Of a DNA stretch of 64,000 nucleotides, positions 1 through 46,500 are shown piece after piece. Below the pieces are notes generated by a model. The model made no database searches. It saw only the letters and a program-made list of their open reading frames with translations, and was not told the origin of the DNA. The stretch's first letter is position 1; each line of letters starts with the position of its first letter. The position numbers and the translations under genes were made by a program. Origin of the DNA: Protonemura montana (Eukaryota; Arthropoda; Insecta; Plecoptera; Nemouridae); contig OX387603.1 of assembly GCA_947568835.1 (NCBI GenBank), positions 3,759,701-3,823,700 of the forward strand, read 5' to 3'.

Positions 1-682
1 TAGCCAGGAGCAAAAGTCAAGGAGCAGGAGCAAGGACTTCTGTCAGTATAAAAACAGCTGTCAGGGACTGAGACAGCTGACAGTGTTCTCATTGATCATC
101 TATCAACTGTCATATTACATTTAACCAATATTGATTTATCAGATTTCTGCTGGATTATTTATTTACCTATGACAAGTATTCAGCATACATGGCAAGGTAT
201 CAAACCTCTATGATTATAACAGTCAGTTTAAAAACAAAATTAGGGAATAAATATTTTCTTGCTTTAACTGTTTTGAATTTGAACCTAGACTTCCTTCCAT
301 CATACTTTCTGATTTCTTAATACATCTATTCCGAAATACTTGTCCGAAATGTTAATTCTTGTCACTCTGAAATACGGCGTTTGCGACGAGATAAAAATTT
401 GCCTGAGGAAACGCAGACAAACTTTAAATCGGTTTGCACAGTAAATCAGGCCGAGTAAAAACGATTTGGAAAGTGTGCTGACGAGTGCTCAGTTTAGAAT
501 CAATCTGAATTAGCATCAACCAAATCATATAACTGACAGGTGAATAGGTTCAATCAAACAAAACCTTCCTCTCTTGCTGCTTTTATTCTAACAACAGACT
601 TATGGTACACCGAGTGGCTTTCAAGTGCCACTGAACATTGCCGTGCTGAGACGTGAGAAAGTTCTTAGTATTCGAGCGCCAC
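1..682. other. 3' flank of the STIL-like gene, no gene seen
   Basis: I see no coding region with splice support here. The first 100 bases have a purine-rich stretch with repeated GGAGCA-type words. The interval near 580 probably contains the end of the STIL-like transcript, which reads leftward. The rest is ordinary AT-rich intergenic sequence. Confidence 0.4.
582..587 (-). terminator. Polyadenylation signal of the STIL-like gene
   Basis: AATAAA on the minus strand lies about 95 nt past the proposed stop codon at 683. That is a suitable distance for a short 3' UTR. This is a position and motif inference; no transcript evidence is available. Confidence 0.4.
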
Positions 683-3600
683 TCACTTCTTGGAGGCGGC
701 CAGCACGGAGTCTGTCTCGCACGTGCTCACCCCAAGCCTACGCAGCTGCTGCATCGTAGCGACTCTCACTAACCCAGAGTCAAGGGTAGGAACCTCTCGC
801 TCTGAAGACACCCACTCATCACAAGCCTGGGGAGAAGACACACATTGTATATTGTACCCAAAATTCATCAAAGTATGCAGAGAATGACAGATCCAGTGCA
901 ACTTTGCCATCTTTGTTTGCAACTATTAAGGGTGTTACATAGCGTGTAAGCTTTATCTGTGCAAGCTTTATCTGTGACAGTTTTTGCCCCCTAAGGATGG
1001 AATATCTGTGCAAGCTTTATCTGTGGTAGTATTTGCCCCATAAGGATGGAATATCTGTGCAAGCTTTATCTGTAGTAGTCTTTGCCCTATAAGGCTATCT
1101 GTGCAAGCTTAATCTGTGATAGGCTGATAGCTTTTGCCCTATAAGGATGGAATATCTGTGTAAGCTGTCCATGACTCACCTTCTTACGACCGTAGAGCAT
1201 TCCCCCTCGGTCCACTACTTCAGCCTGCTCCCGGTAACGATCCTCGTCTGCCTCCCTTCCGCTTACGTGGCGGTAATTCCGTTGGTTCTCGTCCACGTTT
1301 CGGCCATAAGTGTGCCTCCCGTTATCACGACCGTTTTCGTATCGGTTTTCGTGCCGGTCATTCCTAACTTGGTTTCCATTCATTCTGTGAAGAAAACATT
1401 CATCAGCAATGTTTTGCTAGATACAACCATTCTACCACAGCGCTAATGTTAAACTATCTTTTTCAAGTCAGCCACCTAATAACAACATTACCATCAAATG
1501 TGGAGGATGCTACTAGGTGGTGTCACCGTAGTTTCGAATAAGAAATTTAATTTCGTTACTTCTCGAAAGATTACACGCATTTACGACTAATTTAGAGTAA
1601 ATTTACTGTTATTAATGCTAACCTCAATAATTTATAAACATGTGTCAATATTTTGAGAAAAAATGATTTAATTGTAGAGGTTTATTGTTTGCAAGCTTAT
1701 TTATTATAGCTTATTTTGGCAAGAACCCTAATAACTTTTGACCCCCATAGTTATTTTACTTGTATACCAAATTGGACCCAGGCTTCCTGGGTGGTCATAT
1801 ACCCAACTCACAAGTTTCACTCTCTAGGAAATATTTCAAGAAATCATGCACGTAAATCTTTAGACAGCCAACGTCGTTTGTTTTCGAAATTGTCATCGTG
1901 GTCAGTTTGGAATTCACAGAGTTTCCACAATGCAGTGACCACGAGTGACATAAGCGGCAAATTTCATAAAAAATGAACGGGGGTACTGTATGGTATTGCA
2001 TGGTTCTTTTGGTTGTGGTCCCATTTCAACCAAAATGCCCACTCCCTCAAAATCTCAAGCGGCCGTAGGCAGCGGGTTCTGCTAGTTTTTTCAATAAATA
2101 CAGATTTGTTTCCCACCTCGTGTTTCCTCTCCCAGCGTTTGGTCGCATGGCGTCGTAATGTTCTTTGAGTTCTAAGTCTTGGTCTGTCCTGTCGTCGTCT
2201 CCCACGCTACAAGGCCTTGCAGAGTCTGACTGGTTCAAAGATTCAAACATGTCTTGGCCCTCATCTGGACCAGCATGGAGCATATCATTCACCTGGCCCT
2301 GAAGAAGGGAAGGGAGAATAAGTGGTGGCCATCCTTGGTGCTGTTAGACAGGAGCAGCCAACACAGTATGTCAAAGGGACAAGGCTAAGCGATGGCCAGT
2401 CCTTGGTGCTGTTGGACAGGAGCAGCCAACACAGTGTGTCAAAGTGACAAGGCTAAGCGGTGGCTGGTCCTTGGTGCTGTTGGACAAGAGCAGCCATCAT
2501 AGTATTTTTACGCACCACCATGTTGTGGTAGAAGGTCCAGCCGACTCGAGGGGGGTCCTCCTCCGCTGATGAGCTGCTGCTGCTGCTGCCGGAGCGGAAG
2601 TTAAGAACGTCGACGTGCACGGATGCGTTTGGGCTGTGTTCGGGTTCACGAGCAGTTGGCATGGTAACTCCGCCGAGCGTCATGGAGTCATCGTCATCAA
2701 GATGCCTGCGCAACGAGAAAGTGAATTTTTACTGGTTTTACGACACCCATTTTGTGGTTCAATTTTTTTGTGATAATACACATAGGTGTTTAAGTGAATT
2801 TTCTATTTGTTGATTATTTTTTAAATACTGTTCGTTAGACATCTAACACAGAAAAAAAAATCATGTCTAAATTCAGTCAAAGCAAAGCCTGGATCAAGCT
2901 CCATAGGAAGCATGCTTCCAGCGCAGTAGCAAGTAAAGAATTTGAAACTCAAACCAACCGTCAATGTTCTTATTTGATAAGAAACAGAAGAATATCACAT
3001 GAAATCACGCAACTGTTGTGGTAAAGTTTCGTGACATGCTTCATCTGCAAATCAAACCTTAACTGTTGACATTTGGGTCGGTCAATAAAGCAGATTCCTG
3101 TTTCACAGCAATTCTCTCACACACTCACCCTTACAACACCGATTTTAAAAGTGGGCAAACGTATTCCCAACGGCCACGACACGGGTTTGACAGCCAGGTA
3201 CAAGTGGACTGATGGTTAAGTGGCCTGGATTTGTGGCAAGCTATGATTGGAACAAGTGTGGAATCAGAAATAAATACTTATTACTTATCTTCATTCCTTT
3301 TAACCGTCCAATGGCAAATGCTGTTAGCGTAGTTAAGGACAGCGAGTGAATTTGCTTCGTTTAGAGTCATGTCACTCCAATAGCTACTCTCTTTCCGTGA
3401 TCCTATAATTCACTTTTCAGAAAAAAGTTTACCTTTTTTTACCAAAATTGCAGAGATGTGAAATACATCAAAATTAAGTAGTTCCAAAGTTTTTGAGCCC
3501 GCATTTGCTTTCTTTCTCCTTAAGTCACAAGTTTCTGACTTCATTTTGTGAATTTGGTCTGTTTTGCTTTGATCTATACAATAGATCAGCGTTTTATGTT

Positions 3601-6357
3601 ATCATCCCATAATATTACTCAAGTTGCGCTCAAGACCAAGTTACTTTCGTCTCAAGTATCAACGAAGATTGTCCCCTGCACTGGTTCAGTGTTTGGTTAG
3701 TGAATCTAAACGGACAGGAATCTCATACTCACGAGCCACCAGTCTTGCGGTCCTGACAGTTACACTGGGTGTTGCCTCTCAGAGGGTTCGTCCGCTTCAT
3801 GCAAGTCTCTCCATCGCTTCCTCGATCTGCCACCAGGGAGCTTGCGCCCTTCCCGGCCGTCGCTTGGCGTAGAAGAGCGTTTGGCTTCGGAGCTCTCCGT
3901 TCTACCTGCAAAGACAGTAGAAGGAGTTAGCCTGGCACACAGCCTGCTCCTGTCCAACGGTACCAAGGACCGGCCACCGCTTAGCCTTGTCCCTTTGACA
4001 CACTGTGTTGGCTGCTCCTGTCCAACAGCACCAAGGACCGGCCACCACTTAGCCTTGTTCCTTTGACACACTGTGTTGGCTGCTCCTGTCCAACTGCATC
4101 AAGGACCGGCCTACGCTTAGCCTTGTCACTTTGACACACTTTGTTGACTGCTCCTGTCCAACAGCACCAAGGACCGGCCACCGCTTAGCCTTGTTCCTTT
4201 GACACACTGTGTTGGCTGCTCCTGTCCAACTGCATCAAGGACCGGCCAACGCTTAGCCTTGTCACTTTGACACACTGTGTTGGCTGCTCCTGTCGAACAG
4301 CACCAAGGACCGGCCACCACTTAGCCTTGTTCCTTTGACACACTGTGTTGGCTGCTCCTGTCGAACAGCACCAAGGACCGGCCACCACTTAGCCTTGTCA
4401 CTTTGACACGCTGTGCTGGCTGCTCCTGTCCAACAGCACCAAGGACAAGCGCAGTTTCTCCTCACCGGTCTTTGGTAGAAAACGTTCTGGTCGACAAAGC
4501 TGGTCATGACTCCGATGGAGACTTGCTGCACCATGGTTTGGTGCTGGCTTCTCATTGGTCGGTTTGTATCGGTATTGCTTGCGGAAGCAACGCCTTCGTT
4601 TGCAGCTCCGTTTTGTTGGTTGCTCACGTTTCTTTGAGTCCATTCTTTGGTGCTTGCTTGGTTTGTGTTCTCGTCCCACTCTTGAGGTGCCCACATATTT
4701 TTTGTTTGTTTATCGTTGTCTGAAATTTGAGGGAAAAGTCAATTTTATTTTGTTACTGGTAGCTTACTGGTTTCAAGTTTTTTTGAGATTGTATTAACGT
4801 ACCGATTTCATTTCGACCGCACATTCGTGTGTCATCGCATTCATTGACGTGCTGAGAGTGCCTTCCACCATTCTGTCCATTTAGCAGATTCGGTAAAGCA
4901 TTATCGCGGACATTTTCTAGACCACCCTTTCTTGTACTCCTGCTCAATTGTTGTTCATCTTGTCTCCCATGCCCCGTTTGACAGTTGGAGTTAAGACCTA
5001 GTCCTTGTCCTTGTATGGTATGAGTTATTTCTCGAACATCTCGACAGTTGTTTTGGTTTAGAAGTCCTTGGACTTGGGCCTGGTAATTAAAATAAAATAA
5101 GGACAAAGTGTTTTTTTTCTTTCTTGTCAGTGTTGATCCGTATTTTAGAACTTTTAAAAATATTATAATAACCTGTTAGTTTCTAGTTTATTCTATAGCC
5201 TACCTTGAGACCAAGAATTTCTTCGTTCTGCATCTGAATAAGTCGATACAAATCAGCGACAGATACTTGATGGTCTGGCCGTTTATCCGTTTGAACAATT
5301 CCAGCAAAACAATCTCCTTCACCTCTGTGATTGGTTGAATCAGAGTTGAATCTTTCTGAACCTTGGACGCGTGCATTACTAGTCAAACTGTTGTTCGGAA
5401 ACTGTCTCGTGTAAATTTCATTGCAGTAAAGGTTTCTGTTGCTGGGAGGCATCTCAGGTCCAATTAGATTTTCCCGATTAAAGAGACTGTGTGGTGCATC
5501 GTTAAAATTTGTGTTCCGAAGTTGTGACTGAACACAATTACCAGGCAGTTGCATTGGGTGACTCTGAAGGAAATTTTGATGAGATAAATTCTGTTGAAAA
5601 CATTGAAATGGCTGAGGGGATTGCTGGTACAAATGCTCATAAGGCTGCTGAGAAGGATTTGAGCCTCGACAATTTGATGAAGGAAAATTGGTTGGTGATC
5701 TTAGATATGTTTCTGGTAATGTTTTTGCAGTTTGATATTTTGGATCATATTGAGCTTGTGCATTATTAAAATCCTGTCTCATTTCCTGGTTGATAGCTGG
5801 AGAAACATATCTTCTGTCTGCAGGTGGATCACTCTTTAGTAACTGGCGCGAGTCCCATTGTAAATTATCACGACTTAGTTCATACGTCATCGGTTGCTGA
5901 GAAGACATTTGCAGACCATTTTCCTGTTGACCTACGCTTGTTTTAGCAGGTATTACACCATTGGTATATCTTGGAGATGTAGTGTAGTATTTGAATCTTG
6001 GTGAAGATTCATCGGAACTTTTTAGATTATTGTGCCGCCAGGCATTGTAAGATTCGAAATGCTCAGAGCTTGGTGTTTGTTCAGTTTGAGGAGTGTCAAC
6101 AATCGCTTGGTTTTTGGTGCTGTGAAGAACCAGTGAAACGTCGGGTACGACAGATTTGAAAGGTGCCTGAAAGAAATTTAGATTTATATAATTAATTTTG
6201 GTGAAAATAGAGATAACTGACAGCAAGTAAACAGTATATTGCACGCAGCCAAAAAGAGCGGGAAAATGATTACGTGAGAAAACGGTGCAGGCGTAGGTCG
6301 CAGATTCGTTCTTGGTTGTAATTCTTCAGAAGAATTACACTCTTCGTCGGAGTACAT
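683..6357 (-). CDS. STIL/Ana2-like centriole duplication protein, nine coding exons
   Basis: STIL/Ana2 proteins recruit SAS-6 and bind PLK4 to start procentriole assembly. Exons in transcript order: 6357-6274, 6166-5204, 5079-4803, 4719-4466, 3905-3733, 2705-2516, 2298-2117, 1384-1180, 826-683. Every junction has GT donor and AG acceptor and the phases agree (0,0,1,0,2,0,2,0), giving about 823 aa. Seen: an acidic start (MYSDEEC), a long Gln/Asn/Ser-rich region, then a short coiled coil spanning exons 2 and 3 (LYRLIQMQNEEILGLK joined to AQVQGLLNQ) like the STIL coiled coil that binds PLK4. The C-terminal 230 residues hold GWTFYHNMV joined to GQVNDML and a final VRVATMQQLRRLGV, resembling the STAN motif. 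The start is the first Met with an open phase-0 exon and could be extended by an unseen exon. Identity is from remembered family motifs. The gene structure is firmer than the name. Confidence 0.66.
940..1165. repeat. 49-bp minisatellite filling the last intron of the STIL-like gene
   Basis: About four to five units with period 49 (GGATGG starts at 994 and 1043), each containing AAGGATGGAATATCTGTGCA and AAGCTTTATCTGTG. The array takes up most of intron 827-1179. The same unit, also plus-oriented, fills an F-box gene intron at 22712-22943. Confidence 0.8.
2330..2510 (+). repeat. 68-bp minisatellite, about 2.5 units, filling a STIL-like intron
   Basis: The units read GTGCTGTTGGACAGGAGCAG, CCAACACAGTGTGTCAAAG, ACAAGGCTAAGCGGTGGC. 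The array extends to within a few bases of the exon 2516-2705 donor and so makes up nearly all of intron 2299-2515. It is the reverse complement of the array at 3930-4447. Confidence 0.8.
3930..4447 (-). repeat. 68-bp minisatellite, about 7.5 units, filling a STIL-like intron
   Basis: Units start with GGCTGCTCCTGTCCAACAGC at 4010, 4078 and so on (period 68). The array occupies almost all of intron 3906-4465, leaving only short caps for the donor (GTGAGG) and the acceptor (TCTTTGCAG). ORFs through it on the minus strand are repeat shadows. Confidence 0.85.
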
Positions 6358-9900: not shown

Positions 9901-12900
9901 ATCGTGCCTGCTCGGAACGATTTTTTTTTTTTATTGCCCTGGCAGCATGGCAATCGCTTCACATTACATCACCTCTGCCTCGTACTACCAAAGATTGTGT
10001 TGCCAGCAAGAGGAATCTCTGATCTGCGGACATGCAAGGATTTATGCAACGATCAACTATGTCGTGAAGGTAGAATGCATTGTTCAGCTTTTCAGCTGGT
10101 GTAATGCTATCATGCTTGGTAGTTAGTTGGTTTGACATTCCAAGATGGAATCGAGAAGAGAGAAAAGGGCAGTAAAAAGACCGACACGAAAGAAAGATTG
10201 CAAGGTCAAAAACCCTGCCGTGACATGCAGATAGAGAAGAGCAGGTTGCATTCTCACTAGAAGTAAGTTTGCTAAATCTGCGATAGGGCTGTCAATTAGT
10301 CTACGTGGGAGTAGGAATTGAAGTAGGGAATGAACTCATACAAACTGGGTTTTAAGAAGTGGGCAAGTCTCACTTTATAGATGGCAGCACTTGATGTAAT
10401 GTTCTGTCAACGTATGTTTGTTTCCAGCTCCAGATTACAGGGTTCCCGTCACACCTCACTTACTGGTCGCTGAAGGGCAGCACCGTCGAGGACTTGCCCT
10501 TTGAGCGCTCGTACTTCATGGACCTTCATCGACACATGCCCAACCTGCAGGCAAGTACCTCAACAATGGGTCCGCAGTAATTCGTTCTTCACAACGAGGC
10601 GGTTCTGTTATTTTGCTTGATTATTGTCGACATCTATAAAACATGTTGGAATCGGCCAACTAGTGTTGGAGACATGACCTTCCAAAGTCGGGCTCTTTTA
10701 GCGGTTCACGCTTGCGAAGTTCCGTATCATAACCGATATCTAAAAAACTATTCAAGTTATAGACTTGCGGTTTACAGCGCTAGAAAGAGAATTAAAAACT
10801 TAGTCGAAAACAGTCTCACAATTTTGAAAAAATCCGAACAGATTGTTACATATGTTTTCTACAAGCAGCAACAATAAAAAAAATCTTTTCACAATTCCAT
10901 GCTCTCACTACAACTGAGGAGCAACACAACTTTTATTGGTCTTCGTAGTAAAAGACGGCAAGTCAGGGATCGGTTCCCTGACTTGCCAGCAAAACAATTC
11001 CTTATTTTCAATGTGTTCATCATGCCGCATGTCCATAAGGGAGCACTGACTTTGAAAACATGGGGACAAAACGTTATCTCGGTTCAAATGAGAGGGAAAT
11101 AAATGTTTTGTAAGCTTGAGAACATTGTTAATAATCGAACGACGGTCTGTGTGCTTCCTGCAGGTGCTGGTGCTGTCGGAGTGCCCCTGGTTCCAAGCGC
11201 ACAGTCTCATGGCGATCGCAAAGTGTCCGCTGTTGCGGGAGCTGCGTCTTGACGGCTGTGTTCATCTCGGGAACTGCATGGCCTACTGCAGCATGTCCGC
11301 TCGCTTTGCTTTCAAGTCGCTACAGGTACGTCCAATAGGGAAATCTCCTTAAGATTATTATTTAATTATTATCATTGTGTTCAAATACGCGTTTAAAATA
11401 AAATCTGACGTATTTTTTCTTTTTATAATCCGATCATAACTTTTCTATTTCTATTTGTTTTAAGAATGGCTAAAATATAAATTCTCGTGACGGGATGAAA
11501 ACGGGCTGTGACGTCAGAAATTCTGTTCTGACGTCATTTTGGGTCTCCTTTGTGTTCGCTACTGTTTCTTAACGTTTTTTGACGTCATACTGACGTCAGA
11601 TATCACTATACGTCACAAAAAATGGCGACCCTTTGTTTTCGTACGAGATTGAAACGCAAACATTTTAAACAGGTATATTTTATTCAAAATTGGATTTAGA
11701 AGAAAATAAAAAAATACGTGTTCATTATTTTCTCACAAAAAAAAAAAAAAAATAGTTTCAAATTTAAAGAGATTTTGTCTGCTGCAATATGTCTTGGTGG
11801 CTGGGTGTGCGTCATGTTGATGAGCATAGCGAGCAAAGGAGGATCCTCGATTTCACATGCTCCAGAAAAAAATTGAGAAAAATCGGTCAGATGATTGTGA
11901 AATTGTTGAAAATGTACAGATAATTTTCCTGTTTTAAAAAATTAACTTTTCCAAGTACTCATTTTTGAAATTTGCAGAAGCAGTTTTCATTTATTTATTT
12001 ATTTGTTTGTTTGTTTATCAATGGGTCATTCCATGTGTAATCACTCACTTTTAATTAAATTTCACTTTGACCGACCCAGATTTTGATGAAAATTGGTATA
12101 CTTGTTAAGTTTGTTGACTTAGGGGCTATTTTTTTTTTTTTTTTTTTTTGGTCCAACCGTTCGGATATTACAAGGGGGGGAAGTTGGGGTCATTTTGCCC
12201 CCCGGGCGTGTAGTGACCACCCTTTCTACGCAATATCTAGGGTTCTATGGGAGCTACAGAGCTGGGAAAAAAATCATCTGAAAGGTAATTTCATACCCTA
12301 CCTGAATATGGAAACAAAAATGACGATATGTTAATACGAATTTAATTGTGATTTTACACATCTGCATTTTCCAAAATGACCATATCGCTGATGAGTCATT
12401 TTTGATTTGCCTGATTTTTTTTCTATATATACAGAACATACATATGATCATGTGTTCCAAAAATCAAGATGGGTGTTTTACCACTTTCCAAGAAAAAAAA
12501 TTTTTTCTATAAAAAAGTGCCTTTTTGCCAGTAGAACAGCATTTTGATCACAATTATTGTGATCAGAGCACTGGCATATATTTTATATTAAAGTTGATTT
12601 TTGTTTGCACAGTTGCATGTTCTTGAAATGTTATTCTCTACAATACAAATCGATTGTTTGCCATATTCCTGTAAATCATGGATCAAGTTGAAACAGTTCA
12701 TAGAAGTCAAAAGTTTGTTCATTTCTTGTCTGGACTTGCATCTACAAGAATCTTAAAATGGTATTCCCTAGAATACAACTATAGATTGTTTGTCATGCTC
12801 CTGAATCATGGATCAAGTTGTAACAGGTTACAAGTAAAAAGTTTGGTAATTTCTTGTCTGGACTAAAGCAATCAGTCTCTGGCCTCATGTTGATGAGGAT

Positions 12901-15900
12901 AGAAGCTAATTTGCTCTCAAGCACCTTTTATTTAGAGATTCATAATGTGCTCAATTGGACTGTTCTTTGAAGAAGAATGTGGACCCATCGAAGATCTAGC
13001 GATTAAAAGCATTGAAAGTTTCAATAGTGACCAGCAGTTATCATTAGCTCTGCGTACTAAGTGTGATAATGTGAAGACCGTGTGTCATTTACATGAAAAG
13101 AAATTCCTTCGTCTGTATAGCTGTCACCACAAGTTATGCTGCGATCCGTTTCAGGCTCACTGTGGAATAGTGAAAGTTAATGGGTTAAGAGAAATTAATG
13201 CAGCATCCAGGACGAAATACTTGGAGATTGCCGACCTCATCCCTGGAAAGAAATTATGCTCAACTTGCCGTAAGCTGCTCTCGCTCAGGCTGAAGGAACT
13301 AACAACCGTTTCTGTTCTAACGCCAACTAAATCCACTGAACTTGACCTACCTTTCGTGGACATACCCTGTGAAGCAGATGCCGTGAATCAGTCTTTAGCT
13401 GCATTTGGTGTGTCACCTATTAATACCACCAAACTAAAGGGTAAATCTATGTTTTATTCGAAAAGAAAGTTCAGCGAAATAACACAAGGTGTAAAGAAGA
13501 GATTGGAACTAGTATCTCCCAGTAATGAAGAAATCAGCAAAGAAGATTTGACATCTTCAGAGGAGTGCAAGGACAGCATCCGTGATGGGTCAGAGATAAT
13601 AGCACAACTGAAAGAAAAGTTTAAGACGAGTACCAGAAGCGAGAAAATAACAATTTTATCTGTGCTTCCAAAAAGTTGGAGCATTAAGAGAATAATGCAA
13701 GAGTTCAATGCATCTAACCATTTGGTACGTAAAACCAAACAACTAGTAAAGGCCCAAGGGATACTGCCATCTGCAAATCAAAAAGCAGGAAAAACTCTTT
13801 CCCCTGATTGCATTCAACTGATTGAAGAGTTTTATGAAAATGATGATGTAAGCCGTGTCATGCCGGGTAAAAAAGATTTTGTCTCGGTTAAAGTGGGTGA
13901 CAATCGAGTTCACCGCCAGAAGAGACTAGTGTTAAGCAACTTAAGTGAAGTGTATCGCAGCTTCAAAGATAAATATCCTGACATCAAGGTTGGATTCTCG
14001 AAGTTTGCAGAGCTCAGACCCAAACATTGTGTTCTGGCAGGAGCAGCTGGGACACATTCTGTCTGTGTCTGTACGATACACCAAAACGTTAAGTTGATGG
14101 CTTTGGGAGCAAAGCTGCCTTTGCTTTCAGACGGTACCATCAAATCATACCAACACTGCCTTGCCAGCCTCATGTGCAACCCCCCGCTTCTCAACTGCTT
14201 TGTAGGAAAGTGTGGCAATTGTCCGGGAACCGATGAACTTCGTGAATGGCTAGAAATCTCATTCAGTGAAAATTTCATAGACTCTGTGACTTATAAACAG
14301 TGGCTGTCAACAGACAGATGTACCCTAGAGACAATTACGAAACCTACAGATGAGTTTGTTGACTGTTTTATTGAAAAATGCATTTTATTAAGAAATCATG
14401 ATTTTATTGCACGGCAGCAAGCGGCATTCATGCAGGAGAAGAAAGCCAACCTTAAACCAGGGGAAGTTTTAGTAGTGGGCGACTTCGCTGAGAATTATTC
14501 TTTTGTGCTCCAGGATGCTGCACAAGGTTACCATTGGAATAACAGCCAATGCACCCTTCACCCATTTGTGTGTTACTTTAAGCCTGAAGATCGAGACATA
14601 CAACATTTAAGTTACGTTGTCATTTCTGACTCGCTAACTCATGACACCGTTACTGTGCACACTTTCCAAAAGCACCTGATAAGACACCTGAAACAAAACA
14701 TTTCGGATGTATCCCATTTAATTTACTTTTCTGATGGAGCGGCAGCCCAATATAAGAATAAGAAGAATTTTTCCAACTTGTGCCATCATGAAGTTGACTT
14801 CGAACTAACTGCTGAGTGGCATTTTTTTGCCACATCCCACGGTAAAGGACCATGCGATGGAGTTGGTGGGACTGTAAAACGAAATGCAGCACGGGCAAGT
14901 TTACAGAAACCATATGCCGACCAAATAATGACGCCGATAGACTTTTACCGGTGGGCAACAGAAAATGTGTGGACTGTAAATTTTGTGTTTGTAGCCAATG
15001 AAGAGATTACAGCAAATGGCATCAAACTTAAAGAACGATTCAAAGAATTAAAAACTATCGTAGGCACAAGAAGCTTTCATGCGTTCTACCCAAAATCGCT
15101 AACTTCCTTACATGTGAAACACTTTTCTCTTTCTGAAGAAATCAACATTGTGAAGATTGTTGAGAAAAATGAAGAAGGAGAAGAAGAAGAAGAAGAAGAA
15201 GAGGAGGAAGCAACAGCAGCAGAAATACCCGAGTTTGAGTTCAAAGACGTGGGCAGTTTCATCACTGTAGCATACAACGAAGACTGGTGGCTAGCGTGTG
15301 TTCTTGAAAAATCATCACAGTCTCTTGAACTTCAAGTCAACTTTCTACACCCTCATGGACCAGCTCCATCATATTTTTATCCCAGTGTACAAGACAAACT
15401 AATTGTAGCTTTTGCTGATGTTTTAACACTGGCCGACCCCAACACGGCAACTGGTCGAACATACTTTTTGTCGGCTACAGACACCAACAGGGCAACAGCA
15501 GGGCTTATAAAATATGTACCTCAATAAGGTAAACTACATCTCTCTTAAGATATGCAAATTTGTACTTCATAGTAGCTATGATTGTAAGTAATGATCATTT
15601 TCTTGAATGTTGTCTTAAATTCAGTTCATATTAATTTATATTATGAATGAATTTGCAGAAAACATTTTTTTTTCTTGGAAAGTAGTAGAACACCCATCTT
15701 GATTTTTGGAACACATGATCATATGTATGTTCTGTACATATAGAAAAAAAATCAGGCAAATCAAAAATGACTCATCAGCGATATGGTCATTTTGGAAAAT
15801 GCAGATGTGTAAAATCACAATTAAATTCGTATTAACATATCGTCATTTTTGTTTCCATATTCAGGTAGGGTATGAAATTACCTTTCAGATGATTTTTTTC

Positions 15901-18900
15901 CCAGCTCTGTAGCTCCCATAGAACCCTAGATATTGCGTAGAAAGGGTGGTCACTACACGCGCGGGGGGCAAAATGACCCCAACTTCCCCCCCTTGTAATA
16001 TCCGAACGGTTGGACCAAAAAAAAAAAAATTAAAAAATAGCCCCTAAGTCAACAAACTTAACAAGTATACCAATTTTCATCAAAATCTGGGTCGGTCAAA
16101 GTTTGAGGTGAGTGATTACACATGGAATGACCCCAATAGCTTTGGTATAACAATAATTACCTGAGGCTAATAGAATTACGATAATGTTTATAGAATTTAA
16201 AATATAATTACATAGAATTTTGTGGTAAGTTTATAAAAATACAGTGGTATTTCACATTTTTTGGAAATTGTTCATGACAACAGATATGTTTAAATTTCGT
16301 TAACCCTTTTATGTAGATTCATGATAATTTCCTTGGCTATTCCGACAATGGTTACATGTGGAGATCGGGGTTCGAGTCCCCGTTTGATACGCCAATTTTT
16401 GAGAGGTTATTAGTGTTTCTTTGATAATAAAATGACTGTGGTGTCTTTGTACGCCAGACCCTGGACGTACGGCGAACGCGACTGAGTGACTCCGAGATCG
16501 GATGCTTCAATCGGGTGACGACATTGAGGCACCTCCTGGTAGAGAGCCACGCAGACTCCGACAGAGTGGAGCTTGCCGAGGAAGTCCCCGACGACTCGGT
16601 CACCTGCCGAGTGCTGCCGTCCCGCTGCATGATAGTCCTGGATCGCGTCAACAACGAGTACATCGTTAATAGACAGGTAGACTCACATAACCTCACTCTT
16701 GTGAGACATCAGAAGTCAACAGCTGATCTGTCAGATGTGGTAGACTGCTGGACAGGGTTCAATACCAGAACTAGGGGACTAGCTATGCTATCTTTTTTTT
16801 ATTTAGATGAAATTTTTATTTAAATTGCAAACGCTTGCAATGCGTGGGGTATTTTATTATTATCAACACTATAACCGTCTCAAAAATTGATGCCCAAACG
16901 GGGACTCGAACCCCGATCTCCACCTATCGCTGGTGTTGCTCTAGCCCATTGAGCTACATGGAAACTGGCTTTTTGAGACGATTTTAGTGTATTTGGGCAT
17001 ACATTTTTGAGATGCTTTTTTTTTATTATTTATTTATTTATTGATTTCTAACTTAGGTACAATTATACCAGTGGTTAGTACTAGTAGGCAATCTAGCCTA
17101 TGCTGGTTCCTAGGTCTAAGGTGTATTTTTGGCACCACGTATGATTACAAAATAAAGTTACACAAAATAAAATAAGTGTAATATAATTAATAATAATAAT
17201 AATTTTTTTAAATTTTCTAAATTCATAAATTTCCACAGAACATGAATACGCTTCTCTACGTGTTACTTACTAAGCACTGGTAGGGTGGTCTACCCCTTGT
17301 CTTGACAGCTCTCTTCTAATTGTTGCTTGCCACTGACTTCTGCCGCAGGTTGTTCTGCGGCCGGACATCCACGAAGACGAGATCAACCACATCATACGCA
17401 ATGTAGACTCAATGGACAGGTAAAAAAAAATGCCAATATTTTTATCTTGACAAAAATTTAATTTGACATCACCACAAAACTGATTTAGCTTGTGTGAAAG
17501 TTTCTTGATGGGATTCCTGCCAGTTATTTTGATGAAAATTAATTTATCTCAAGTACCTTAGTTTTTGCATGTAAATGTGCTTTCAAATTCCCTATTGGTC
17601 CTGTTTTAAGGTTGTATTGCCTCCTTTTTCTGGGGGATCCAGGGAAAAAATCCTATTGGGATTGGTGAAAAGTGAAAACTGTTTCATTAACTAGAAAAAT
17701 CACTTTCAGGGCACATTTTCCAGGAAAACCATTTTAAAGATATGTGTTAAAAACTGGATACAGCCAATAAGGGAGGATTTTTTTTATTTTCTATTATTAT
17801 TTTTTATTTATTATTTTGTATTGTTATTATTACTATTATGTGTAGTTTGGTAAAGTTAACAGATGGATGAAATTTATGATCCGCAGCTGCTACAAAAACT
17901 CTGATTTTTTTCCCCCAAAAAACACCACAAAAACTCCTTAAACCTCTCAGGTCGTTTAGTTGTATGCAGTAAACCTAGATATAGACCCGAGTAAGCTCCC
18001 TTCCAATAGACCTGAGTAAGCTCCCACTCCAATAGACCTGAGTAAGCTCCCACTCCAATAGACCTGAGTAAGCTCCCACTCCAATAGACCTGAGTTAGCT
18101 ACCACTCCAATAGACCTGAGTAAGCTCCCTCTCCAAAAGACCTGAGTAAGCTCCCACTCCAATAGACCTGAGTAAGCTCCCACTCCAATAGACCTGAGTA
18201 AGCTCCCACTCCAATAGACCTTAGTAAACTTGTGTGATCTTGGTCATGAAACTTTCAGGAGTACTTCATATAAAACTGAACACAATTTGAAATATTTTTT
18301 TGTTAAATTTTTCACCAAACTGAATCTTGCATCAGGTTTATCGACCAGGGCAGAGCCTGCGTGGAGGGCGCCGCTCCGAACCACGTTGAGATCCACTACA
18401 GCAACCGTCGCAACATCTACATCGACATCGACATGTCTGGCCGACGGGCTGTCGCTAGGCAGGGTTCCCATGACGACCAGGACGCGGCTGGGCCCTCGAG
18501 GGAACCACAACCACTCGGTGAAGGCCCGCAGAACTCGGTAGGTCACTCTGTCACTCCCCAAATACCTCCGCAATCTGGAAAATCTGATTTAAATTGCAAA
18601 TGCTTGTAATGTGCACATTATTTTATTATCAGGAACACTAATAACTAGAGCCACGATTATATGGTGATGCGCGAAATTGCGAATTGTTCTTATCTCTTGT
18701 TTTTCTTACAAATGAGTGCGATTCATTGAATTCCCAACTCAAATATGTAAGAAGCTCATCGCGACATAACGCGAAATTCACGAAAAATCATCCATAACAC
18801 CGAAATCAACTATTTCCCGCGAAATCATCGCGAAATGAGCTTTTTACCATCCAATTATCTTAAATTTCAGATAATCTGCTTTTTTTTTCTTTTTTATCAA

Positions 18901-43587: not shown

Positions 43588-46500
43588 ATGGACAGCACCG
43601 AATACGAACTGGTGAGGAATCTGACACTTCTCTTCTTCTTTGAAAGGCTGATGGATAAGGGAGGCCCTCGAACTTTACATGATCTAAGTTGTCAATTCGG
43701 CGCAAAAGGCTTCACAAAAGAAATGAGACAAATTGCCGGTGGATCCCAATCTGGACTCAGAAAATTCTTGGCTCAATATCCGTCTCTGTTTTCCTTGGAC
43801 GGTGACTACGTGTTTGTAAATGCTTTCTCCACTACCTCAACTTCTTCCGAAGACGATGAAACAACAGGAGCCACAAAGTATGTCAGTGGCAAGCGAGACT
43901 ATGCCCAGGAAGCCGTCGAGTATTTTTGTCACAAACTGCTACAGTACGGCGAAGGCACCGAAGTTCCAATCAAAAGTCTTCTCGGACATCGGTCTCAAGC
44001 TTCCCCCGAAGTTCGCCACATATCAGGTCAACATGTAAAAGAATTCCACGACTTCTTGTGCAGGTATCCAGACGCTTTTGTTGTTAAAGACGAGGCTGTT
44101 ATTTTAAAAGAATTTGAGGGTAAAGAACATCTACCGTTTCAAGAACTGGAAGAAGTGAAAATTAATTCAGAAGTTACGTCTCGATTACTCATTTATTTTA
44201 CTCAGTGCATCGACATCAAAGGACCAATGCTGGTTGATCAATTGTTCTCCATGGTGACAGCTAGGTTCTCGCAAGATGAATGGTCGTGCATCTTCAAAAC
44301 CCCATCAGATCTAGCCACTTTTTTGAAAATGAATTCAGACATCTTCAACGTTCAATCCAACTTGGTGACGTTGATCATGACAAGAAGAAACGATGTCAAC
44401 AATCGGTTGAACCAACAACACTCTCCTGCGAGAGAAACGAATAGATCTGCAATTATTTCCCCTCCGCCGCGAACACCCGACAATGAAATTGCCGACAACG
44501 CTAACAACAACCAAACAGTGCCTGCGACAAACAACCAGAGTTTGAAGCAACGTATCAACAACCTCGTAATGAAAACCTTGGCGGACAATACGGAAAAAGA
44601 TCGAAACTTGCACAGCAACGGTGTCGCCACTGGTGGTGAAACTTGGAAGCTGAAAGTATTACAGGTAAACAAAAGACAGTATTTTTATCCTAAGTGAAAC
44701 CTGGTTGAAACTTGGTCCAGACTAACATTTTATATTCTAATAATAAATGAAATTTTACAAAAATCAAGCAAATAAATCCAGACAAGGCACGTAAAAACAA
44801 GACCTTTAGTTTTAGCAACTTAAGGTTCAAAAGGGAATATTTTGTGATAAAGAAATAAGTTAGGGTTTTCTCTACCACTGTTTTCTTTGAATGTGATCAA
44901 AACCTCCAATTGATCTAGGTTCAAATTTTAAACATATATTAGCACAAGAAGAAAACATTGGCAGCTACAAAATAAATTTAGTTTGCATGTGGCAGAATAA
45001 ATACCAGATTTGAATGTAAATTAATTTACATATTTTTTGGGAATGTTTTAAATTATTCATTAGCCTTTCTACACATCAGAAAATCAGTAAAAATTAGGTT
45101 AGCTAAAAACCGAGTTTAGCTTGATGTTGGTGAAATCGGTCATCAACCCCGTATTATTTCACCGTATCTTAGTTAAAACCCGTTCGTAATTAAATCATTG
45201 GTTTATTTTTTTAAGATTTATTTTATACCTGCCGTTGTAAAAATGGTTGAATATAGTTGTGTTGTTTGAATATTGAGTAGAAAGAACTACTGAATAATCT
45301 AGTGGGATGTATACTTCCCACTGGTGCTCTGCAGTTGAACATATATACTTCCCACTGGTACTCTGCAGTTGAACATATATACTTCCCACTGATGCTTTGT
45401 AGTCGAACATATATACTTCCCACTGATGCTCTGTAGTTGAACATATATACTTCCCACTGATGCTCTGTAGTTGAACATATATACTTCCCACTGATGCTCT
45501 GTATTTGAACATATATACTTCCCACTGATGCTCTGTAGTTGAACATATATACTTCCCACTGATGCTCTGTAGTTGAACATATATACTTCCCACTGATGCT
45601 CTGTAGTTGAACATATATACTTCCCACTGATGCTCTGTAGTTGAACATATATACTTCCCACTGATGCTCTGTAGTTGAACATATATACTTCCCACTGATG
45701 CTCTGTAGTTGAACATATATACTTCCCACTGATGCTCTGTAGTTGAACATATATACTTCCCACTGATGCTCTGTAGTCGAACATATATACTTCCCACTGA
45801 TGCTCTGTAGTTGAACATATATACTTCCCACTGATGCTCTGTAGTTGAACATATATACTTCCCACTGATGCTCTGTAGTTGAACATATATACTTCCCACT
45901 GATGCTCTGTAGTTGAACATATATACTTCCCACTGATGCTCTGTAGTTGAACATATATACTTCCCACTGATGCTCTGTAGTTGAACATATATACTTCCCA
46001 CTGATGCTCTGTATTTGAACATATATACTTCCCACTGATGCTCTGTAGTTGAACATATATACTTCCCACTGATGCTCTGTAGTTGAACATATATACTTCC
46101 CACTGATGCTCTGTAGTTGAACATATATATTGTAATTGTAATTGTCTTTATTTGTCCGTTATCACAAGGTTTACATTCAGAGTGTAATAGGATGTGGACT
46201 CGTCCAAAAACAGAAACAAAGCGTATTTTAAAACACTAAAAACACAGGTGAGATAAATAAAATCAAATAACAACAGTCACACCTTTGTCCAATCCTTTGA
46301 GTCTAATTTATAAAATTCGTCAATACTATAAAAACCTTTGCATAATAACAATTCCTTTATAGTGCGTCTAAACTTAAAAGAATCCGCTATTGAGGCAATA
46401 TTGTCAGGAAGGCTATTAAACAGTTTAATACCAAGATAAAATATGCTGTCTTTAAAACTATCTAGTCTACTTCCCACTGATGCTCTGTAGTTGAACATAT

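Follow-up and report, generated by a model that had tools for sequence, protein, structure and literature searches.

Sola transposons, according to the portions of text available to us, encode a DDD transposase, generate 4-bp target-site duplications, measure mostly 2 to 9 kb, and carry terminal repeats of 11 to 1,124 bp (PMC10741241). In the Sola2 type the 4-bp duplications are AT rich, and the element described from Dictyostelium fasciculatum has a transposase of 888 amino acids (aa) (PMC3627910). Here we describe an element of Protonemura montana that resembles these descriptions. It occupies positions 12023 to 16133 of a 64,000-nucleotide (nt) stretch of contig OX387603.1, which we call the window; window coordinates are positions within this stretch, and the assembly as a whole comprises 258 Mb in 34 contigs. 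At 4,111 bp, with inverted arms of about 480 bp, the element lies inside the printed range for Sola and Sola2 in both size and arm length. Like Sola2 elements, it has AT-rich 4-bp duplications and one large transposase (860 aa here and 888 aa there), with a putative core of the DDD type. Unlike the Sola2 elements of PMC3627910, which carry a Fanzor1 protein in the part of that account available to us, it contains the 860-aa open reading frame (ORF) as its only long frame. Its ends begin GGGTCATTCC, and its arms approach 500 bp. We consider it highly probable that the element is an autonomous DNA transposon of the cut-and-paste kind, probably a Sola2 type, that underwent a very recent burst by the mechanism proposed below.

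The termini of the element, GGGTCATTCC...GGAATGACCC, have the form GGG...CCC and belong to a terminal inverted repeat of 26 bp, the left copy of which (12023 to 12048, plus strand) is 100% complementary to the right copy (16108 to 16133, minus strand). An earlier note on this DNA had reported perfect inverted ends; the perfect repeat is present, and its length is 26 bp rather than the 10 bp given there. After a short nonmatching stretch, 443 nt of the left arm (12064 to 12506, plus strand) pair with the right arm (15660 to 16102, minus strand) at 98%, bringing the arms to about 480 bp overall, as the note had estimated. CAAT was read directly on both sides of the element, at 12019 to 12022 and at 16134 to 16137, with no strand assigned. 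The transposase ORF lies on the plus strand (12945 to 15527), encodes 860 aa, needs no intron, and contains no stop. The ends, the flanking CAAT, and the uninterrupted ORF confirm the intact transposon that had been proposed at these positions.

Searching the whole genome for the exact 26-bp end yielded 164 forward and 164 reverse occurrences, compared with 0 for the reversed control pattern; these counts are far beyond chance. When up to three mismatches were allowed, the counts rose to 167 and 167. Because this relaxation adds only three ends in each orientation in the 258-Mb genome, older copies bearing the ends of the window family are almost absent. Among the 100 of 328 end places that were listed, 4 belong to a composite copy described below. 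The remaining 96 make up 48 pairs, with a spacing of exactly 4,111 bp in 46 pairs and of 4,110 and 4,112 bp in the other two; no short derivatives with the window family's ends were found among these 100 places. All 53 protein matches that were scored, from 581 first-look candidates, were 100% identical and stop free, which bears out the single-ORF transposase with an open frame. Among the best 150 matches of a further search, 90 are listed window-family copies, and at least 87 of them have the open frame at its full 863 codons, counted from stop to stop.

We then considered 49 copies base by base, including the window's own and leaving out L015, which is the composite's truncated half, and the partial loci L001 to L008. 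Thirty-four of them, the window's own among them, are base-for-base equal to the window, and the remaining 15 carry one or two changes. The whole transposase frame is kept in 47 copies; it is broken by a stop at codon 5 in L042 and by a frameshift in L045, and one missense change each is found in L051 and L052. Three of the variable sites show, in seven of the 49 copies, exactly the base found in the other arm (four copies at position 183, one at 407, and two at 4008-4009). These sites point to conversion between the arms, which seems to occur in the window family. Apart from them, seven different substitutions and two indels of a single base are present in the 49 × 4,111 bases, so that substitutions among copies amount to about 3.5 per 100,000. 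On the assumption of three changes per billion bases per generation, the divergence of the copies would correspond to an age on the order of ten thousand generations, or less if some of the changes are sequencing errors.

The earlier note had inferred recent or current activity from the near identity of the arms together with the open frame. Its claim of recency holds, and on other grounds: the copies are nearly identical to each other. The identity of the arms, by contrast, cannot date the burst, because the same arm-to-arm differences are preserved in 42 of the 49 copies. Recent activity of the window family is well supported by this comparison between copies.

A perfect 4-bp duplication flanks 47 of the 49 copies and extends to 5 bp in none of the 47, so that the further copies with matching ends and 4-bp duplications that the earlier note had anticipated do exist. 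The two copies without a duplication are L016, which is part of the composite, and L029. There are 31 different sequences among the 47 duplications, none of them TTAA, and 163 of their 188 bases are A or T, versus 1,027 of 1,504 in the flanks. Palindromy of the target over the inner 18 positions was 0.86, compared with 0.29 (standard deviation [SD], 0.06) in random sets, a difference due in part to the AT-rich duplication itself. When only positions outside the duplication were counted, palindromy was 0.32 versus 0.00 (SD, 0.03), and 0 of 2,000 random sets scored as high. The target site is weakly palindromic and AT rich, with a Y-WWWW-R core. An unoccupied site was also found. Copy L027 is inserted in a repeat, and a paralogue of its insertion site lies in the window, outside the element (11330 to 11775, plus strand; 93.5% over 447 bp). 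This empty copy is uninterrupted across the junction and contains a single TATT, which is direct evidence that the element inserts precisely and duplicates 4 bp.

The burst could have come from the reactivation of an old resident family instead of a new arrival, and we regard this as a serious possibility with somewhat less than an even chance. Related families with similar ends live in the same genome, as described below, and speak for a resident origin; the near absence of degenerate copies that bear the ends of the window family, at three in each orientation with one to three mismatches, speaks against it. Outside the source genome, no match was found in viral contigs (scanned with both the protein and the end pattern), genome contigs, plasmids, or phages, collections that include few or no animal genomes and are therefore uninformative about animals. 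Motif words retrieved no relevant paper from the paper library, and the 10-base end retrieved no transposon paper among the 20 listed of 65 matches, as judged by title and abstract.

One copy suggests how the element may have moved during its burst. The composite (L015/L016), at C1:22022459-22030684, consists of flank, an inverted right tip, element positions 1 to 4026, a complete inverted element, and flank, forming a tail-to-tail pair. ATAT is common to the outer flanks. At the inner junctions a CTAA site of the right arm is duplicated, with a left end at one junction and a right end at the other. The right flank of the composite seems to encode what we take to be a TFIIS-like exon. These junctions were read directly, and a single step would explain them exactly: two sister elements would have contributed one end each, the first its left end and the second its right end, and both ends would have inserted together into the right arm of the first. 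The definition of hybrid-element insertion, as worded in the available part of PMC2775673, fits this copy. In P-element hybrid insertion, according to the same text, two copies located on sister chromatids or homologues contribute ends that work as one transposon, as may have happened here; unlike in that case, the insertion went into an arm of the element itself and left an inverted dimer at one locus. The composite also resembles suicidal autointegration of Sleeping Beauty and piggyBac in that the element inserts into itself; in the available account of those transposons an excised element re-enters itself (PMC3952818), whereas the junctions of the composite point to one end from each of two copies. 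Its product, unlike that of suicidal autointegration, survived with target duplications. Reportedly, a case of aberrant transposition related to hybrid-element insertion also occurs in maize.

Alternatively, one copy might have nested in another in the ordinary way, with the inverted arms undergoing gene conversion or recombination afterward to give the composite. Conversion from arm to arm does seem to occur, given the three sites in 7 of 49 copies, but this route requires an additional inversion of about 85 bp that ends exactly at the tip, whereas hybrid-end insertion yields the inner CTAA, the outer ATAT, and a left end together with a right end in one step. We therefore judge the nested route unlikely and favor hybrid-end insertion.

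In the mechanism that we propose, the 860-aa DDD transposase would bind the 26-bp ends together with adjacent arm sequence and cut the element out. The transposase would then join both 3′ ends to the two strands of an AT-rich, weakly palindromic target, with a stagger of 4 bp that leaves the 4-bp duplications. Amplification to about 164 near-identical full-length copies has occurred in one very recent burst. Replication or templated repair was probably needed for this gain in copies, since the composite fits hybrid-end insertion from sister elements.

The predicted protein is consistent with such a role. A Cys/His-rich N-terminal segment (aa 47 to 108; 13083 to 13268, plus strand) may bind zinc. 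For the putative catalytic core (aa 496 to 703; 14430 to 15053, plus strand), AlphaFold2 gave a low-confidence RNase H-like model (predicted local distance difference test score [pLDDT], 53; predicted template modeling score [pTM], 0.52) with the order strand-strand-strand-helix-strand-helices-strand-helix; for aa 370 to 743, the pLDDT was 42. The putative catalytic residues, all encoded on the plus strand, are D513 (14481 to 14483), just after strand 1; D597 (14733 to 14735), just after strand 4; and D638 (14856 to 14858), in the helix after strand 5. DDE/D transposases share this order of strands and helices and this placement of acidic residues. With the caution that its low confidence demands, the model agrees with the earlier note, which had proposed a search for an RNase H-like core containing these three aspartates. 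All three are identical in a second family of the same genome (L067), the frame of which is 51% identical to the window protein over aa 370 to 743. Across this region, the proportion of nonsynonymous differences between the two families (pN) is 0.34 versus 0.91 (saturated) for synonymous differences (pS). Because nonsynonymous differences are far fewer than synonymous ones, the core has been under purifying selection. A PHROGs integrase match at aa 496 to 585 (E value, 0.18) was not significant, and the best Pfam match, to the doublecortin model PF24478 in the L067 row of the alignment (E value, 0.003), was not meaningful. The C-terminal segment (15240 to 15434, plus strand) had been called SH3/Tudor-like, a designation that was not confirmed, as Pfam returned no match in that segment.

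The earlier note had been unable to fit the element to any named superfamily. That view can be revised, as the duplications, size, and arm length match the descriptions of Sola and Sola2, and we consider membership in the Sola superfamily, Sola2 type, likely by comparison with printed descriptions rather than by protein homology. Duplications of 4 bp flank 47 of 49 copies and are AT rich (163 of 188 bases), and the 4,111-bp element has a repeat that is perfect for 26 bp and spans about 480 bp in all. As for a DDD core, D513, D597, and D638 are the same in two families and take RNase H positions in a weak model (pLDDT, 53). The element might instead be a member of a different DDE/D superfamily, known or undescribed, that is Sola2-like only in target duplication and size. 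We give this a rather small chance. It would accord with the lack of a meaningful profile match in Pfam, NCBIfam, or PHROGs, and 4-bp duplications are known from several superfamilies. On the other hand, Kolobok and piggyBac, which require a TTAA target (PMC9587614), are excluded by its absence from all 47 duplications, and Chapaev (CMC), which requires 5′-CAC...GTG-3′ termini (PMC4079192), is excluded by ends that begin with GGG. Mutator-like elements, with duplications of 7 to 12 bp in the available text of PMC10741241, were rejected as well, the duplications here being 4 bp. The AT-rich 4-bp duplications, the transposase length, and the arm range all fit Sola2 or Sola. Galileo, a Foldback-like element, shares the very long inverted repeats, which are more than 99% identical within some of its copies; it belongs to the P superfamily and has 7-bp target sequences, versus 4 bp here (available part of PMC2775673). 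Finally, segmental duplication or assembly artefact as the source of the many copies, which the base-for-base identity of 34 of 49 copies might suggest, is refuted by the copies' own 4-bp duplications in differing flanks (47 of 49) and by the unoccupied paralogous insertion site.

Several observations weigh against our reading of the element as a recently amplified Sola2-type transposon. Copy L029 lacks a 4-bp duplication, and the likeness to Sola2 is one of printed description. Searches of Pfam, NCBIfam, PHROGs, and PDB sequences gave no meaningful match to the transposase, and the low-confidence core model was built on two sequences, with four of five models below a pLDDT of 38.

The genome also contains relatives of the window family. 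A 14-base end occurs 326 and 332 times in the two orientations, compared with once in the control, or about twice the window family's own share. Nonautonomous elements of 2.4 to 2.6 kb (L059, L061, and L063 to L066) have arms of about 1 kb and 4-bp duplications in six of six cases; five retain an N-terminal Cys-rich remnant with 55 to 57% identity over aa 48 to 191, and the sixth, L065, has 39% identity over aa 1 to 191. L060 is a near-complete palindrome of 2,063 bp with a 4-bp duplication, and its 591-bp relative, L062, has none. The L067 family includes an autonomous-looking form of 3,780 bp at C1:4694075-4697854, and its open frame of 702 codons is found in at least 47 copies. It also includes inverted dimers, such as that at C1:2860663-2863966, with two head-to-head transposase-core frames of 231 to 401 aa. 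We analyzed the 79 top-scoring matches to the L067 core from the best 150 of 331 candidates. Of these, 72 form 36 pairs, every one in minus-then-plus order, and 7 are unpaired. Among the matches listed, the pairs fall into seven spacing classes (12, 9, 6, 6, 1, 1, and 1 copies), two of which differ by 4 bp, leaving at least five junction types. The dimers look young, because their cores share one identical score.

The composite illustrates one way in which palindromic elements could start, with the difference that it is tail to tail and the L067 dimers are head to head. More speculatively, hybrid-end insertion combined with arm-to-arm copying might be a regular source of inverted-dimer (foldback) elements in this transposon group, with dimers that contain a pair of inverted transposase-core frames and amplify independently. 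The genome would then display all stages, from the intact element through the fresh composite to amplified palindromes of several junction types. We consider this generalization improbable as it stands.

The ends of these elements also differ in symmetry. In the window element, a shared subterminal motif lies exactly 10 bp farther from one tip than from the other (12023 to 12080 versus 16076 to 16133). The same 10-bp asymmetry is present in all six L059-type elements and in L060, and it is 9 bp in L062. An obligatory 10-bp end rule, resembling a 12/23 rule, was rejected: it predicted the left tip of an L067 element at C1:13773938, and the tip was found at 13773948, in a symmetric arrangement. 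Other L067-family elements have an identical tip listed at both ends. Because the L067 family is symmetric, an asymmetry seen in three families does not hold as a rule for the whole group.

Elsewhere in the window, a tRNA-Ser (cga) was called at 16889 to 16964, about 750 bp to the right of the element, and a tRNA-like stretch near 16350 to 16390 may, from reading it, be a tRNA-derived repeat. A tandem-looking array at 45195 to 46235, on the minus strand, is open in three frames.

Among the papers listed in our searches of the open-licence PMC literature, we found none dissecting an intact, freshly amplified Sola-type element. With its intact ORF, about 164 copies, and defined ends and target, the element described here is a candidate system for biochemical work on the Sola-type group. 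The composite, together with the palindromic relatives, would allow the origin of foldback elements to be put to the test.

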